A stretch of DNA of 64,000 nt. It comes from Thermanaerovibrio acidaminovorans DSM 6589. GTDB taxonomy: Bacteria; Synergistota; Synergistia; Synergistales; Synergistaceae. The notes under the pieces were generated by a model that saw nothing but the letters and a program-made list of their open reading frames with translations, had not been told where the DNA came from and ran no database searches. Position numbers and translations under genes: made by a program. Of this stretch, positions 49,478-58,048 are shown piece after piece. Where the stretch lies: the NCBI RefSeq assembly GCF_000024905.1, contig NC_013522.1, positions 992,001 through 1,056,000 of the forward strand. Reading direction: 5' to 3'. How positions within the stretch are numbered: position 1 is the first letter of the stretch; each line of letters begins with the position of its first letter.

Positions 49478-51749
<2,272 letters not shown>

Positions 51750-52866
51750 ACTATGCTCTCCCCTCTGCCCACGGATCCCACGTGTTCCCCGGATTTTACC
51801 TTAACATTGACCACTTTTAAACCCCCAAGTGCCCGGGAAATTGACGATCTTATCCGAGGAATCCAACTTGAAAGTTTGGGAACCTGCGCATTTATCGTCA
51901 CGTCCACCCACTGGATCTGGAAACCCCCTTGGACCACCCGACGATAGGCCTCCGCCAGGAGATCCAGACTGTAGGCCCCCTTGTAGCGGTCGTCCGAGGC
52001 GGGGAATAGGGTCCCTATGTCGGGCTCCCCTGCGGCCCCCAGGATGGCGTCCGCCACCGCGTGACAGACCGCGTCCGCATCTGAGTGCCCCTGCAGCCCC
52101 AGATTGGCCCCCTCTATCTCAAGTCCCCCCAGGATAAGGGGCCTGCCGGGCACCAAGGGGTGAACATCGTACCCGTGACCGCATCTGTACTCCACCGGCT
52201 CCACCAAGGCCCTGGCCACCTCCCAATCCAGCTGATCCGTCACCTTGAAGGCCCGCCTGTCTCCCTCCACCCAGCCGATCCTCCGTCCGGAGGCCAGCCA
52301 GGCCTCCGCCTCGTCGGTGAACTTCCCGCCCTGCGATAGGACCTCCATCAGCTGAAGACGGGGAAAGGCCTGGGGGGTCTGGGTCAGCATGAGCCCCGAC
52401 CGATCCAGCGACCCCACCACCTCTCCATCGGACATGGCTCGGACCGAGTCATGACACCCTATCAAGGGGACCGCGGAGCCCCTCTCCTCCGCCCGTCTGA
52501 TCAGCCGGAGGCAAAGGTCCAGGGAGACGAGGGGCCGGGCCGCATCGTGAACCAGGACCATCTCCCCCCGGGCCTGGGCGATACCCCTTATGACCGAGTC
52601 CTGCCTCCTCAAACCTCCGGCCACCACACTAAACCCCATGGGGGCAAGGGGCCCCTCCCACTCTTCAAGAATGGCCTCCAACGGATGGGAATGGGGAACC
52701 ACCAGGACGAAATCGCCCACCAGGCCCTCCCGCCAAAGCTGGCGGGCCACCTCCGCGCTCCAGGCCCACACGGGACGCCCCCCCAGTAACCTGAACTGCT
52801 TGGGCTCCCCCCCCAGGCGGCTTCCCGATCCGGCGGCGACGCAAACAAAGGACCAGCGCAAGGGCC

Positions 52867-54000
52867 CTACCTCCTCACCCGGGCAAAGATCATACGTCCC
52901 GCCGAGGTCTGGAGCATGGAGGTAACCACCACCTCCACCCGGCTCCCTATGTACCGCTGGCCGTCCTCCACCACGATCATGGTGCCGTCCTCCAGGTAGC
53001 CAACCCCCTGGTTGGGCTCCTTGCCCTCCCTTATAACGTCCACCCGGATGCTCTCCCCGGGCAACAACATGGGCTTCAAGGCGTTGGATAGGTCGTTCAC
53101 GTTGAGGACCCGAACCCCCTCTATCTGGGCTATCTTGTTCAGGTTGTAATCGGTGGTCAGGACCCACCCCCCCATCGACTTGGCCAGGGCCACGATGGCC
53201 TCGTCCACCACGTCCCTACCCAGGTCTTTCATGGGCACATCCAGTATCCTCATGTCCTCCCCCAGGTCCTTCTGCATCTGGTTCACCACGTCCAGCCCCC
53301 TACGACCCCGGGCCCTCTTTATTGGGTCCGAGCTGTCCGCCACCCCCTGAAGCTCCGATAACACGAACCTGGGCAGGATGAGGGGCCCCTCGATGAAGCC
53401 GGTGGAGACGATGTCCGATATCCTGCCATCTATCAGTATGCTGGTGTCCAGCACCTTCGGGACCCTGAACCCGAAACCATCCGCCTTGCCGGAGGTGGAT
53501 GCCTCCTGATGCGCCTTCCTGCCCTTAAAGGAGATCTTGCCCTTAAGGGAACCCGCGGCGGAGAACAGGGTCCAGACGTCATCCCTCCTCCTGAGCAATA
53601 GCCTAACCCCCAGATAACCCAACACCACGTTGAGGAGCACCGCCAGGTAGATCCCTATCACCGGGATCCTCGCCAGGGGAAGGGCGATCAGGTTCGCCAG
53701 GAGCAAGCCCAGGGTCAGCCCCACCAGGGCGATCAATATCTCGTGAAACCCTATCCCCTGAAGGTTGGACTCGAAGATCTGTCCAACCTTTCCAAGCCCC
53801 ATCCAGAAGAGGGGGGTCACCGCGAAACCCACCAGGGCGAAGGCGGATATCAAAACCACCGTCCACGCCACCGGATGGGCCGATAGATGAGCCCCCACCA
53901 CACCCCCCTCGTGCATGGCGAACAACCCAAGTTGATACCCAACTACCCCTCCGAGCATGGTAAGGAGGAGCCTTATTACCCCCCTCATCATCCTGAACAT
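52867..54000 (-). CDS. PIN-TRAM membrane protein (YacL-like)
   Basis: About 377 residues. Four hydrophobic helices at the N-terminus (LGGVVGYQLGLFAM, WTVVLISAFALVGFAV, ILIALVGLTLGLLLANLI, IYLAVLLNVVLGYLGV) precede a PIN nuclease-like domain (VLDTSILIDGRISDI, ILPRFVLSELQ, GWVLTTDYNLNKIAQ) and a C-terminal TRAM domain (KEPNQGVGYLEDGTMIVVE). The family usually lies next to ispD, as here. ATG at 54000 follows GGAGG. Confidence 0.92.
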   Translation of the reverse strand: MFRMMRGVIRLLLTMLGGVVGYQLGLFAMHEGGVVGAHLSAHPVAWTVVLISAFALVGFAVTPLFWMGLGKVGQIFESNLQGIGFHEILIALVGLTLGLLLANLIALPLARIPVIGIYLAVLLNVVLGYLGVRLLLRRRDDVWTLFSAAGSLKGKISFKGRKAHQEASTSGKADGFGFRVPKVLDTSILIDGRISDIVSTGFIEGPLILPRFVLSELQGVADSSDPIKRARGRRGLDVVNQMQKDLGEDMRILDVPMKDLGRDVVDEAIVALAKSMGGWVLTTDYNLNKIAQIEGVRVLNVNDLSNALKPMLLPGESIRVDVIREGKEPNQGVGYLEDGTMIVVEDGQRYIGSRVEVVVTSMLQTSAGRMIFARVRR

Positions 54001-54036: not shown

Positions 54037-54069
54037 ATAAAACCGAGGCGGAGATCACATGCCCCGCCT
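54037..54069 (-). terminator. Possible terminator after recR
   Basis: AGGCGG and CCGCCT pair across 12 nt over the recR stop, followed by CGGTTTTATC on the minus strand. Weak. Confidence 0.4.
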
Positions 54070-54657
54070 GCCCTCCAACGCCAACTTCAGGGTGGCGCTG
54101 TCGGCGAAACCTATGCTGCCCCCAACGGGCAGACCGGAGGAGAGCCTGGAGACCTTGACCGGCAGGTCGTCCAGGGCCTCCTTCACCGCCAGGGCGGTCA
54201 GCTCCCCCTCAACGCTTGGGGCCAGGGCCAGGATAACCTCCTGAACCCCCCCTCTCTCCACCCTATCGCGCAGTGAGGCCAACGCCTCCGACGGTATATC
54301 CTCCCCGTCCAGGGGGGAGTACCTGCCCCCCAGGACGTGGTACCTTCCGTTGAAGATCCGGTGCCTCTCCATGGCCACGCAGTCCTCCTGGGACTCCACC
54401 ACGCAGATTACCTCCCGGTCACGAGCCGGATCTGAACATATGGGGCACAGGTCCCCCTCCGCCAGGCCCCCACACACGCTACAGGGCCTGACGGACCAAC
54501 GGGCCTCCCGGATGGCCCGGGACAGATCCTCCACCCAATCCTTGGGCTGCCCCAGGATGAAGAAGGCGAACCGCCGGGCCCCCTTCTCACCCACCCCGGG
54601 CAACCTCTTCAGCTTCTCGATCAGGCCATCTACCGACGGTATGCCTACCCCCGCCAA
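54055..54657 (-). CDS. recR: Recombination protein RecR
   Basis: 200 residues. An HhH (LKRLPGVGEKGARRFAFFIL) is followed by the zinc finger CSVCGGLAEGDLCPICSD and a Toprim domain (VICVVESQEDCVAMER, ILALAPSVEGELTA). It acts with RecF/RecO in gap repair. TTG at 54657 follows GGGGG by 6 nt, right after the ybaB stop. Confidence 0.96.
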   Translation of the reverse strand: MAGVGIPSVDGLIEKLKRLPGVGEKGARRFAFFILGQPKDWVEDLSRAIREARWSVRPCSVCGGLAEGDLCPICSDPARDREVICVVESQEDCVAMERHRIFNGRYHVLGGRYSPLDGEDIPSEALASLRDRVERGGVQEVILALAPSVEGELTALAVKEALDDLPVKVSRLSSGLPVGGSIGFADSATLKLALEGRRGM

Positions 54658-54963
54658 CTAGAACCCCCCAAGACCCAGGCCGCCGGTCAACATGCTCATC
54701 CGTTCGGAGGCGAAATCCCGGCTCCGACGCACAGCCTCGTTGACCGCCGAGGTAACCAGGTCCTCCAACATCTCCGGGTCCTCCGGGTCTATCACCTCCG
54801 GGGATATCTTTATGGACACCAGATCCCCCTGGCCGTTCACCCGGGCCACCACCATGCCCCCCCCGGAGGAGCCCTCGTGCTCCATCTTGGCCAGCTCCTC
54901 CTGCAGGGTGGCCATTTGGGCCTGCATCTTCTGGGCCTGCTTCAAAAGCTTGTCTATCTTCAC
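54658..54963 (-). CDS. ybaB: YbaB/EbfC nucleoid-associated protein
   Basis: 101 residues. A coiled-coil helix (LLKQAQKMQAQMATLQEELAKM) precedes VKVNGQGD-like VARVNGQGDLVSIKISPEVID and the closing GGLGLGGF. The ybaB-recR pair is typical. GTG at 54963 with GGAGGGGG upstream. It lies about 54 nt after the glycosyltransferase fusion gene; that gap holds only an AACCGG/CCGGTT repeat. Confidence 0.94.
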   Translation of the reverse strand: MKIDKLLKQAQKMQAQMATLQEELAKMEHEGSSGGGMVVARVNGQGDLVSIKISPEVIDPEDPEMLEDLVTSAVNEAVRRSRDFASERMSMLTGGLGLGGF

Positions 54964-55017: not shown

Positions 55018-56751
55018 CTAACCCTCCCGCCGCCTGCCGAACCGCTCGGCCATCACCAGAAGCACGAACAGCGGTAGCCTCATGACCCGCCGGATCCGCC
55101 AGGGCTCCTGGATGACCCGGTAGAGCCACTCGAGCCCCATCCTCTGCCACCCCTTGGGCGCCCTCTTGAGGCGACCGGATATCACATCCAGGCTTCCACC
55201 AACCCCTATACCGACCACCCCTCTCAAAGGAGGGGCATCCCCCTTCAAAAGGTCCTCTAGCCAGATCTCCTGCCTGGGAACCCCAAGGCCCACCACCAGA
55301 ACCCTGGCCCCGGAGGACTTTATTGCCTCCACCACCGACGGCTCCTCCTCCTTAGAAAAGTAGCCGTCCCGGGCGCCAACCACATTAAGCCCCCGGTGCC
55401 TTGCGCTCAGCTTGCGGGCCGCCTCCTCCGCCACCCCGGGGAGACCCCCTAGGAGGTAAACTCCCCACCCCTCGGCGGCGGCCAACCTGGAGAGGTGATC
55501 CACGAACTCCACCCCCGGAAGCCGCTCCACGATGGGGGTCCCCAGGAACCTCAGGCCCTCCATGAGCCCCTTCCCATCGGGTAGGACGAAGTCCGCCCGG
55601 TTCAGCGCCTTCCGGTAGGTCCCATCCTCCCTGGACCTCAAGGCACCTAGGGCGTCCAGGGTACAGATCAGGCAGTTCTCGCCCCCCGCCACCATGGCCC
55701 GTATCCGGCCCAACACGTAGTTGAGCGACACGTTGTCCACGAAGACATCGAAGATCCTTGGCCTGCGCTGATGTCTTACGCCCTCTCCCCCCTGGAAGAA
55801 GACCAGGAAGCAGGTGAAGACCAGCATGATCCCCGATGACATCAGCACCCCCAACTGAAGGTAGCTGGCGGACCGCTGGGCGGAGAAGCCCATCATGCCA
55901 AAGGCAAGGCAGACGGTGGTAACCAGATACACCGCCTTGGGGTGATCCATCCCCCGGTTCATCAACGCCCTGTAGAGGGTAACGTTCCCCAGCTCCCGCC
56001 GCATGAGTACCGCCCCGGTTATCCTTAGAGACGTCTCCGCCAGGGGCACCAGGAAGAGCCCCACTGGGGCCATGAAGAGCACCGAGAAGGCGAGCCCCTT
56101 GGAGACCCCGAGGACCGACAGGCCCCCGAACAGGACCCCCCATAGGGCCGCCATGTGCTCCCCCAGGCGACCGTAAACGTGAAGGTACCTGCTCCAGAAG
56201 GCCACAATGATCACCAGCCCCCCAAGGGACGCGTAGGTAACCTCGTTCCACCCGGAGGAAGCGGTGAGGACCCCCAGGGTCATCATCCCCCACCCCACCA
56301 ACAGGAGCTGCCCCCCCAGGCCCGGTATCTGGTCCACCTCCTGGAAGATGAGGGGGAACAGGGAGTACCACATGGCAGAAAGGAGCACCGCCACCCCCTC
56401 GGGCAGGAAGAGGAACACATCCCCCGGCATGCCAAGAAACCCGATCCTGGGCCCCCACAGAGCCAGGGCTAACCCAAGAAGCAGGAAGAGGGGCCTAAGA
56501 TCGAAGGACCTCTGCACCTTCTGGCAGAAACCGAGGAAGAACCCCCCCATGGCAGCCACGATCACCCACTTCAAGAGCCCGTTTCCAGACCAGAGCCCCA
56601 TCATGGCCCAGGACCCAAGGACCACTATGTCCTTCACATAGTAGTACTGGTCCCTGGCCAGGTGCCCCTTGAAGAACCGCTGGATCAGGACCCCAACCAT
56701 CCCCACGGCGGCTATGAGGAGCAGGCTCCAGAACGCGTCTTGGCCGGACAA
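55018..56751 (-). CDS. Degenerate WecA/MraY-like membrane domain fused to a WecG/TagA glycosyltransferase
   Basis: 577 residues. The C-terminal 240 or so are a full WecG/TagA/CpsF domain: FVDNVSLNYVLGRIRAMV, LICTLDALGALRS, FVLPDGKGLMEGLRFLG, GWGVYLLGG, VLVVGLGVPRQEIWL and GVGIGVGGSLDVISGRLKRAP. The first 330 residues are about ten membrane helices whose order resembles a WecA-type phosphoglycosyltransferase, for example VPLAETSLRITGAVLMRRELGN near the end. The catalytic Asp clusters (DDxxD, NxxxxDGLDGL) and the HxHH loop are not there. TTG at 56751 is a guess. It would act on a lipid-linked sugar at the membrane. Confidence 0.8.
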   Translation of the reverse strand: MSGQDAFWSLLLIAAVGMVGVLIQRFFKGHLARDQYYYVKDIVVLGSWAMMGLWSGNGLLKWVIVAAMGGFFLGFCQKVQRSFDLRPLFLLLGLALALWGPRIGFLGMPGDVFLFLPEGVAVLLSAMWYSLFPLIFQEVDQIPGLGGQLLLVGWGMMTLGVLTASSGWNEVTYASLGGLVIIVAFWSRYLHVYGRLGEHMAALWGVLFGGLSVLGVSKGLAFSVLFMAPVGLFLVPLAETSLRITGAVLMRRELGNVTLYRALMNRGMDHPKAVYLVTTVCLAFGMMGFSAQRSASYLQLGVLMSSGIMLVFTCFLVFFQGGEGVRHQRRPRIFDVFVDNVSLNYVLGRIRAMVAGGENCLICTLDALGALRSREDGTYRKALNRADFVLPDGKGLMEGLRFLGTPIVERLPGVEFVDHLSRLAAAEGWGVYLLGGLPGVAEEAARKLSARHRGLNVVGARDGYFSKEEEPSVVEAIKSSGARVLVVGLGVPRQEIWLEDLLKGDAPPLRGVVGIGVGGSLDVISGRLKRAPKGWQRMGLEWLYRVIQEPWRIRRVMRLPLFVLLVMAERFGRRREG

Positions 56752-56764
56752 ACCTAGCCCGCTC

Positions 56765-58048
56765 CTAGCGCTTAACCGGGGGGGTTATCTCCCTCACACC
56801 CCCCATGTAGGGGACCAGGGCCTCGGGGATCTCTATGGACCCGTCCTCCCGCTGGAAGTTCTCCACTATGGCCAAGAGGCAGCGCCCAACCGCTATGCCG
56901 GAACCGTTCAGGGTGTGAACGAATCGGGGTCTGCCCCCCTCCTTGGGGCGATACCGGGTGTTCATCCTCCTGGCCTGGAAATCCTCGCAGTTGCTGCAGG
57001 AGCTTATCTCCCGGTAGCAACCCTGGGAGGGCAGCCAGACCTCGATGTCGTAGGTCTTGCTGGAGGCGAAGCCCATGTCGCCGGTGCACAGGCACACCAC
57101 TCGGTACGGCAGGCCCAACCCCTTCAGAACCGACTCAGCAGAGGCGGTGAGGCTCTCCAGCTCATCGTAGCTCTCCTCCGGCCGGCATATCTTAACCAGC
57201 TCCACCTTGGGGAACTGATGAACCCGCAGCATCCCCTTCACATCCCTGCCGTAGCTTCCCGCCTCCCGCCTGAAGCAGGGGGTGTGGGCGGTGTAATGCA
57301 GGGGCAGGGAGTCCTCGTCCAGGATCTCCCCCGAGTGCAGGTTGGTCAGGGGCACCTCCGCGGTGGGGATGAGCCAAAGATCGTCGTTGGCGCACCGGTA
57401 GAGGTCTTCGGAGAACTTGGGAAGCTGTCCGGTGCCGGTCATGGTGGCGCTGCTGACCAGGAACGGGGGGGAGACCTCAATGAAGCCGTTGGAGGTGTGT
57501 AGGTCCAGCATGTACTGCACCAGGGCCCTCTCCAACCGGGCCCCAAGGCCCTTCAGCACCACGAAGCGGCTCTCCGCCAGCCTGACCGCCCGCTCGAAGT
57601 CCATGATCCCCAAGATCTCGCCGATCTCCCAGTGCGGCCTGGGCTCGAAATCGAACCGCCGGGGCTCACCCCAGGTGCGGACCACCGGGTTGGAGGTCTC
57701 GTCCTCCCCCACCGGAACGGTGGAGTGGGGCCTGTTGGGCATCCTAAGCATCAGGTCGTCCAGCTCCCCCTGGACAGAGCCCAGCTCCGCCTCCAGCTGG
57801 GAAACCCGGTCCCCCAGGGAGCGCATATCCTCCATGAGGGCGGAGGCGTCCTCCCCCCGGCGCTTCATCTCCCCCACCCGCTTGGACCCCTCGTTCCTCC
57901 GGGCCTTTATCTCCTCCACCTCGCCCAGGATCTGCCTCCGCCGCTCGTCCAGCTCCAGGAGCCTGTCCAGGGGAAAGTCGGACCTCCTATTCCGGAGGTA
58001 CTCCCTGGCGGCCTCCACGTTATCCCTCACCCACTTGATGTCCATCAT
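56765..58048 (-). CDS. serS: Seryl-tRNA synthetase
   Basis: 427 residues. An N-terminal coiled-coil arm (residues about 30-100) is followed by class II motifs: motif 2 [24 protein letters not shown] and motif 3 [21 protein letters not shown] at 58048 or 58045. It lies 7 nt downstream of ribH. Confidence 0.97.

Follow-up and report, generated by a model that had tools for sequence, protein, structure and literature searches.

Stand-alone TagA, a glycosyltransferase of the GT26 family, requires membrane association and a C-terminal appendage, and is activated by contact with the membrane (PMC6493773). For WecG of Shigella, retention at the membrane through lipid I has been suggested (PMC12212991). 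Among the membrane enzymes that initiate such pathways, MraY is thought to hold its lipid in a groove around TM9b that leads to the DD site (PMC4790310), and affinity gradients have been proposed for the handover of lipid from MraY to MurG (PMC9046198).

We analyzed a stretch of 64,000 nucleotides (hereafter the window) from the genome of Thermanaerovibrio acidaminovorans DSM 6589, which consists of one contig of 1,848,474 bp. Strain Su883T of this species belongs to the Synergistetes and is Gram-negative (PMC3035242). In the window, a single gene joins a catalytically defective membrane domain of the PNPT (PF00953) fold to a complete WecG/TagA domain (Table 1).

Table 1. Features of the fusion gene and its neighbors, in window coordinates
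Feature	Position	Strand	Residues	Remarks
serS	56765..58048	-		Upstream neighbor kept in both classes
Pseudo-TagO/WecA - WecG fusion gene	55018..56751	-	577 aa	TTG start at 56751, stop at 55018
Membrane domain of PNPT fold (inactive; 11 helices) and linker	55756..56751	-	1-332	AlphaFold2, Foldseek, Pfam match of orthologues, hhalign
Gln-Lys in place of the catalytic DD pair	56518..56523	-	77-78	Alignments
Predicted periplasmic beta-hairpin as in MraY/TagO	56407..56439	-	105-115	Host's own WecA is without the hairpin
D140, single retained Asp of DGxDG	56332..56334	-	140	Invariant in 69/69 sequences and four GBS-1 orthologues
Cytoplasmic loop in place of the GDxGS Mg site	56152..56199	-	185-200	Consensus FWSRxxxxYRRLG; R188 invariant
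HxHH site, here TLYR	55969..55980	-	258-261	Y260 invariant
WecG/TagA GT26 domain	55042..55755	-	333-570	
D392, aligned with the TagA catalytic base Asp65	55576..55578	-	392	Alignment; PMC6493773
TagA-type C-terminal appendage	55066..55131	-	541-562	R545, R552 and R555 align with TagA R214, R221 and R224
ybaB-recR	54055..54963	-		Downstream in nearly all order-level loci sampled

A fusion gene across Synergistota

The fusion is an intact, continuous gene that starts 13 bases past the serS stop codon and ends just short of ybaB. The same neighbors, serS, ybaB and recR, flank it in most of the 29 order-level loci that we sampled. In the GBS-1 genomes (f11), serS and ribH sit beside the fusion at all four loci, within a neighborhood of serS, ribH and ribBA. 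These GBS-1 loci also carry a gene between serS and the fusion, convergent with serS (L108:2834-3598, and likewise in L109-L111), whose L108 copy scores 39.8 bits against PF11209, as an LmeA-like protein that binds phospholipid. Near the fusion gene, whose product is expected to use a polyprenyl carrier, positions 51716-53167 (-) of the window read as a fusion of IspD and IspF, enzymes of the MEP route to isoprenoids.

The membrane half was found in 143 of 151 Synergistota genomes, nearly always in single copy, a count that was made with the window's domain as query and leaves out GBS-1, to which this query gives no direct match. GBS-1 genomes nevertheless carry the same fusion, with WecG in frames of 585-593 aa in three of the four genomes and split over contigs in the fourth, so that the fusion is present in almost every Synergistota genome sampled. 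WecG itself occurs in 145 of the 151 genomes and nearly all of its matches sit in open frames of ~490-680 aa; judging from their coordinates, the shorter frames are mostly contig ends. In one draft genome (G102:C47:3777-5338), a TAA codon interrupts the frame within the N-terminal half, through either a sequencing error or a genuine splitting of the gene. Outside the phylum, none of 266 matching plasmid records, the only records searched, covers 80% of the fusion. A conserved-pattern scan built on GBS-1 rows matched GBS-1-type genomes alone. The original prediction knew of no described protein of this architecture, and we likewise found no description of the fusion in the literature searched.

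For close pairs with measurable dS, dN/dS of the membrane half was 0.016-0.067, mostly at or below that of the WecG half, rough values given that dS is high. By this measure, the membrane half is under purifying selection with strong constraint, and its distribution indicates that, although catalytically dead, it has been conserved for the age of the phylum.

Fold and catalytic residues of the two halves

Residues 1-344 gave no significant match to Pfam or NCBIfam; matches to PF00612 (IQ) and Csx18 fell below cut-off and were taken as chance. The AlphaFold2 model has a pLDDT of 90.8 over its full length and 88.1 for residues 1-344, with helices spanning residues 1 to ~320 and the WecG/TagA domain following. 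When the model of residues 1-344 was compared with the PDB by Foldseek, all 32 matches at E<0.001 were MraY or DPAGT1 (TM-scores of ~0.5-0.7), and the next, unrelated match had an E-value of 0.08. The full-length model matches MraY as well as TagA/TarA, the latter with a TM-score of 0.95 over the C-terminal half. As in MraY, the ninth helix is broken and a hairpin lies between helices 4 and 5. The helix order of polyprenyl-phosphate sugar-phosphate transferases, originally read from the letters alone, is thus borne out by the model, and the N-terminal half does not adopt an unrelated fold. The pTM is lower for the full-length model than for the domain (0.75 versus 0.87), and the linker and TM11 are poorly conserved; how the two halves are arranged with respect to each other is therefore uncertain.

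Sequence comparison reaches the same superfamily by way of GBS-1. The window protein has no match to PF00953, and the four GBS-1 orthologues score 37.2, 36.4, 32.2 and 21.9 bits against a cut-off of 27, three of them above it. The GBS-1 domain also matches Firmicute proteins annotated as MraY-family (TagO-type) glycosyltransferases, down to an E-value of 5e-12; used as a query against PDB sequences, it found no match. With hhalign, the Synergistales and GBS-1 domains align at a probability of 99.4 (E 4.6e-22, 264 columns) and the GBS-1 domain aligns with WecA (E 2.5e-7); the Synergistales domain alone gives weak alignments (E 0.006 with WecA, E 0.0015 with MraY). Because three of the four GBS-1 orthologues pass the PF00953 cut-off and the GBS-1 domain matches TagO-type proteins, the homology argument is closed: through GBS-1 and through structure, the membrane half is homologous to PNPT transferases. 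In a tree, the Synergistales and GBS-1 domains form one clade (UFBoot 99) apart from the WecA clade; with its long branches and few TagO rows, we take this tree to speak for a joint origin only. Since the beta-hairpin is common to TagO and the pseudo-domain and absent from the host WecA, the domain looks TagO-derived rather than recently copied from WecA.

We scored motif loss on 69 aligned sequences, together with an alignment to four Firmicute TagO-type proteins and intact WecAs. The DD pair has become mostly Gln/Glu-Lys/Arg, the second Asp of DGxDG is a Pro, the Mg-binding Asp of GDxGS (position 198) is replaced by Glu, Arg, Lys or Ser, and HxHH reads x-[LFI]-Y-R. The TPxxGG/RKxH substrate loop is also absent. 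Judged from these alignments, the PNPT catalytic apparatus is gone, save for one Asp. The original prediction that all catalytic Asp clusters and the HxHH loop had been lost therefore stands for these four sites but not for D140, which is invariant; the GDxGS Asp also persists in one GBS-1 copy (L111). Other positions of the membrane half are newly invariant (D41, G144, R188, W204, Y260 and H270) or nearly so (E239, 97%). Entropy is lowest in cytoplasmic loops 5-6 and 7-8, TM8 and the TM8-9 loop, and TM1, TM11, the loop preceding TM11 and the linker are most variable. Each protein carries ~15 Lys or Arg residues in predicted cytoplasmic loops versus ~3 in periplasmic ones; with 11 helices and positive charge on the predicted cytoplasmic side, the WecG half should be cytoplasmic.

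The WecG half, by contrast with the membrane half, keeps its motifs, as had been originally proposed. It matches PF03808 (residues 386-556, 1.6e-57, 194 bits) and TIGR00696 (157 bits), both above cut-off, the WecG/TagA models of Pfam and NCBIfam starting at residues ~383-386, and it aligns with TagA of T. italicus (7mpk) at an E-value of 3e-44. In this alignment, T37, D65, R83, Q167, E168, R214, R221 and R224 of TagA, residues that belong to the C-terminal appendage or have a demonstrated or proposed part in catalysis (PMC6493773), correspond to T364, D392, R410, Q494, E495, R545, R552 and R555 of the fusion. The GT26 catalytic residues and the C-terminal appendage are, on this alignment, intact.

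Predicted pathway and role of the membrane half

A single intact WecA, complete in its motifs, is encoded at another site of the host genome (C1:983015-983905), where wecB follows it; the genome also has MraY (C1:908399). WecA is present in 144 of 151 Synergistota genomes. At all 33 loci checked, 30 from Synergistales and 3 from GBS-1, wecB adjoins wecA, and the WecAs of the three GBS-1 loci carry all motifs. This linkage is consistent with transfer of ManNAc(A) onto Und-PP-GlcNAc. Upstream of wecA and outside the window lies a 370-aa ORF (L113:4916-6028, -) that reads as a fusion of ribose-5-phosphate isomerase B and uracil phosphoribosyltransferase; its homologues adjoin wecA in 33 of the 33 loci. 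The Gram-negative host encodes one LytR-CpsA-Psr family protein (G000:C1:935675-936118, -; L150), possibly the ligase for the glycan of this pathway. More speculatively, such a ligase would be compatible with a wall-linked glycopolymer of a GlcNAc-ManNAc unit.

We consider it probable that the GT26 enzyme adds ManNAc(A) to Und-PP-GlcNAc and that the pseudo-TagO half is a lipid cradle that anchors it and loads its substrate. The separate WecA would make Und-PP-GlcNAc, WecB would supply UDP-ManNAc and the fused GT26 domain would attach ManNAc or ManNAcA to yield a disaccharide lipid, the expected second-sugar step on a lipid-linked cell-envelope precursor across Synergistota. Less certainly, the pseudo-PNPT domain would still have the PNPT groove for lipid (TM5/TM8/TM9b), with a basic face toward the cytoplasm and no metal or nucleotide site; it would capture Und-PP-GlcNAc and present it to the GT26 active site. 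Such capture would take over from the transient contact that TagA and WecG, as stand-alone proteins, make with the membrane. That the dead half has been kept suggests a use in holding or passing on lipid, and the docking or lipid-handling platform first proposed fits the published dependence of TagA and WecG on membrane and lipid. Nevertheless, the groove elements may reflect nothing beyond fold conservation, and the uncertain arrangement of the two halves also counts against this reading. A fuller scenario, which we put forward tentatively and hold to be rather doubtful, is that a pseudoenzyme fixed in the ancestor of Synergistota binds Und-PP-GlcNAc metal-free, docks on WecA and hands the lipid to the fused GT26 domain, with basic residues standing in for the Asp cluster and the first two envelope-glycan steps channelled.

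The main rival is that the dead domain is chiefly a docking partner, forming a heterodimer with active WecA and channelling Und-PP-GlcNAc from the first step to the second. PNPTs such as MraY do dimerize, with lipid at the interface of the MraY homodimer (PMC4790310, PMC9046198), WecA and the fusion co-occur throughout the phylum, and the dead domain is strongly constrained. However, the host WecA is a short form without the beta-hairpin, WecA and the pseudo-domain are far diverged, and their genes are not adjacent, which leaves docking as the principal function unlikely. Docking and lipid handling are compatible and could both hold.

The requirement of stand-alone TagA and WecG for membrane association (PMC6493773, PMC12212991) could be satisfied by a mere membrane anchor, but anchoring needs neither the invariant D140, R188, W204, Y260 and H270 nor as many as 11 helices, and dN/dS is as low as in the enzyme half; we regard this as very unlikely. 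To an active membrane half, with a rebuilt site for other polyprenyl-phosphate chemistry or for translocating lipid across the membrane, we give scant credence: the new invariant polar residues D41, D140, R188, Y260 and H270, with the nearly invariant E239, would suit such a site, but the Mg-binding Asp, HxHH and the substrate loop are lost. We know of no precedent in the PNPT superfamily for a rebuilt active site or lipid translocation. Finally, a frameshift-joined gene pair or a decaying pseudogene, for which the TTG start and the in-frame TAA of one draft genome could be cited, has virtually no chance of being correct and was rejected, because a fusion of ~560-650 aa recurs across the phylum with a single origin and under purifying selection.

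Comparison with known systems

The lipid-cradle reading bears on how polyprenyl-linked intermediates travel from the membrane enzyme that starts a pathway to the peripheral glycosyltransferase that acts after it. Here, evolution appears to have fused a dead enzyme of the initiating type to the second enzyme of the pathway, giving a single chain in which mutations could uncouple lipid capture from catalysis. The dead domain is also a candidate pseudoenzyme within a superfamily that contains antibiotic targets.

The membrane half shares with TagO, WecA and MraY the fold, the helix order, the beta-hairpin, the broken ninth helix and the first Asp of DGxDG; unlike them, it is without the DD pair, the second Asp, the GDxGS Asp, HxHH and the TPxxGG/RKxH loop, and has a GT26 domain attached. 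With TagA/TarA (GT26; N-acetylglucosaminyldiphosphoundecaprenol N-acetyl-beta-D-mannosaminyltransferase), the fusion shares the whole catalytic domain, its key residues and the C-terminal appendage (TM 0.95), but stand-alone TagA is a peripheral dimer or monomer, whereas the GT26 domain of the fusion is held covalently on an 11-helix membrane domain. WecG of enterobacterial common antigen synthesis belongs to the same family and has the same expected acceptor, Und-PP-GlcNAc; it is a stand-alone, peripheral enzyme that uses UDP-ManNAcA, whereas the donor of the fusion would provide ManNAc or ManNAcA.
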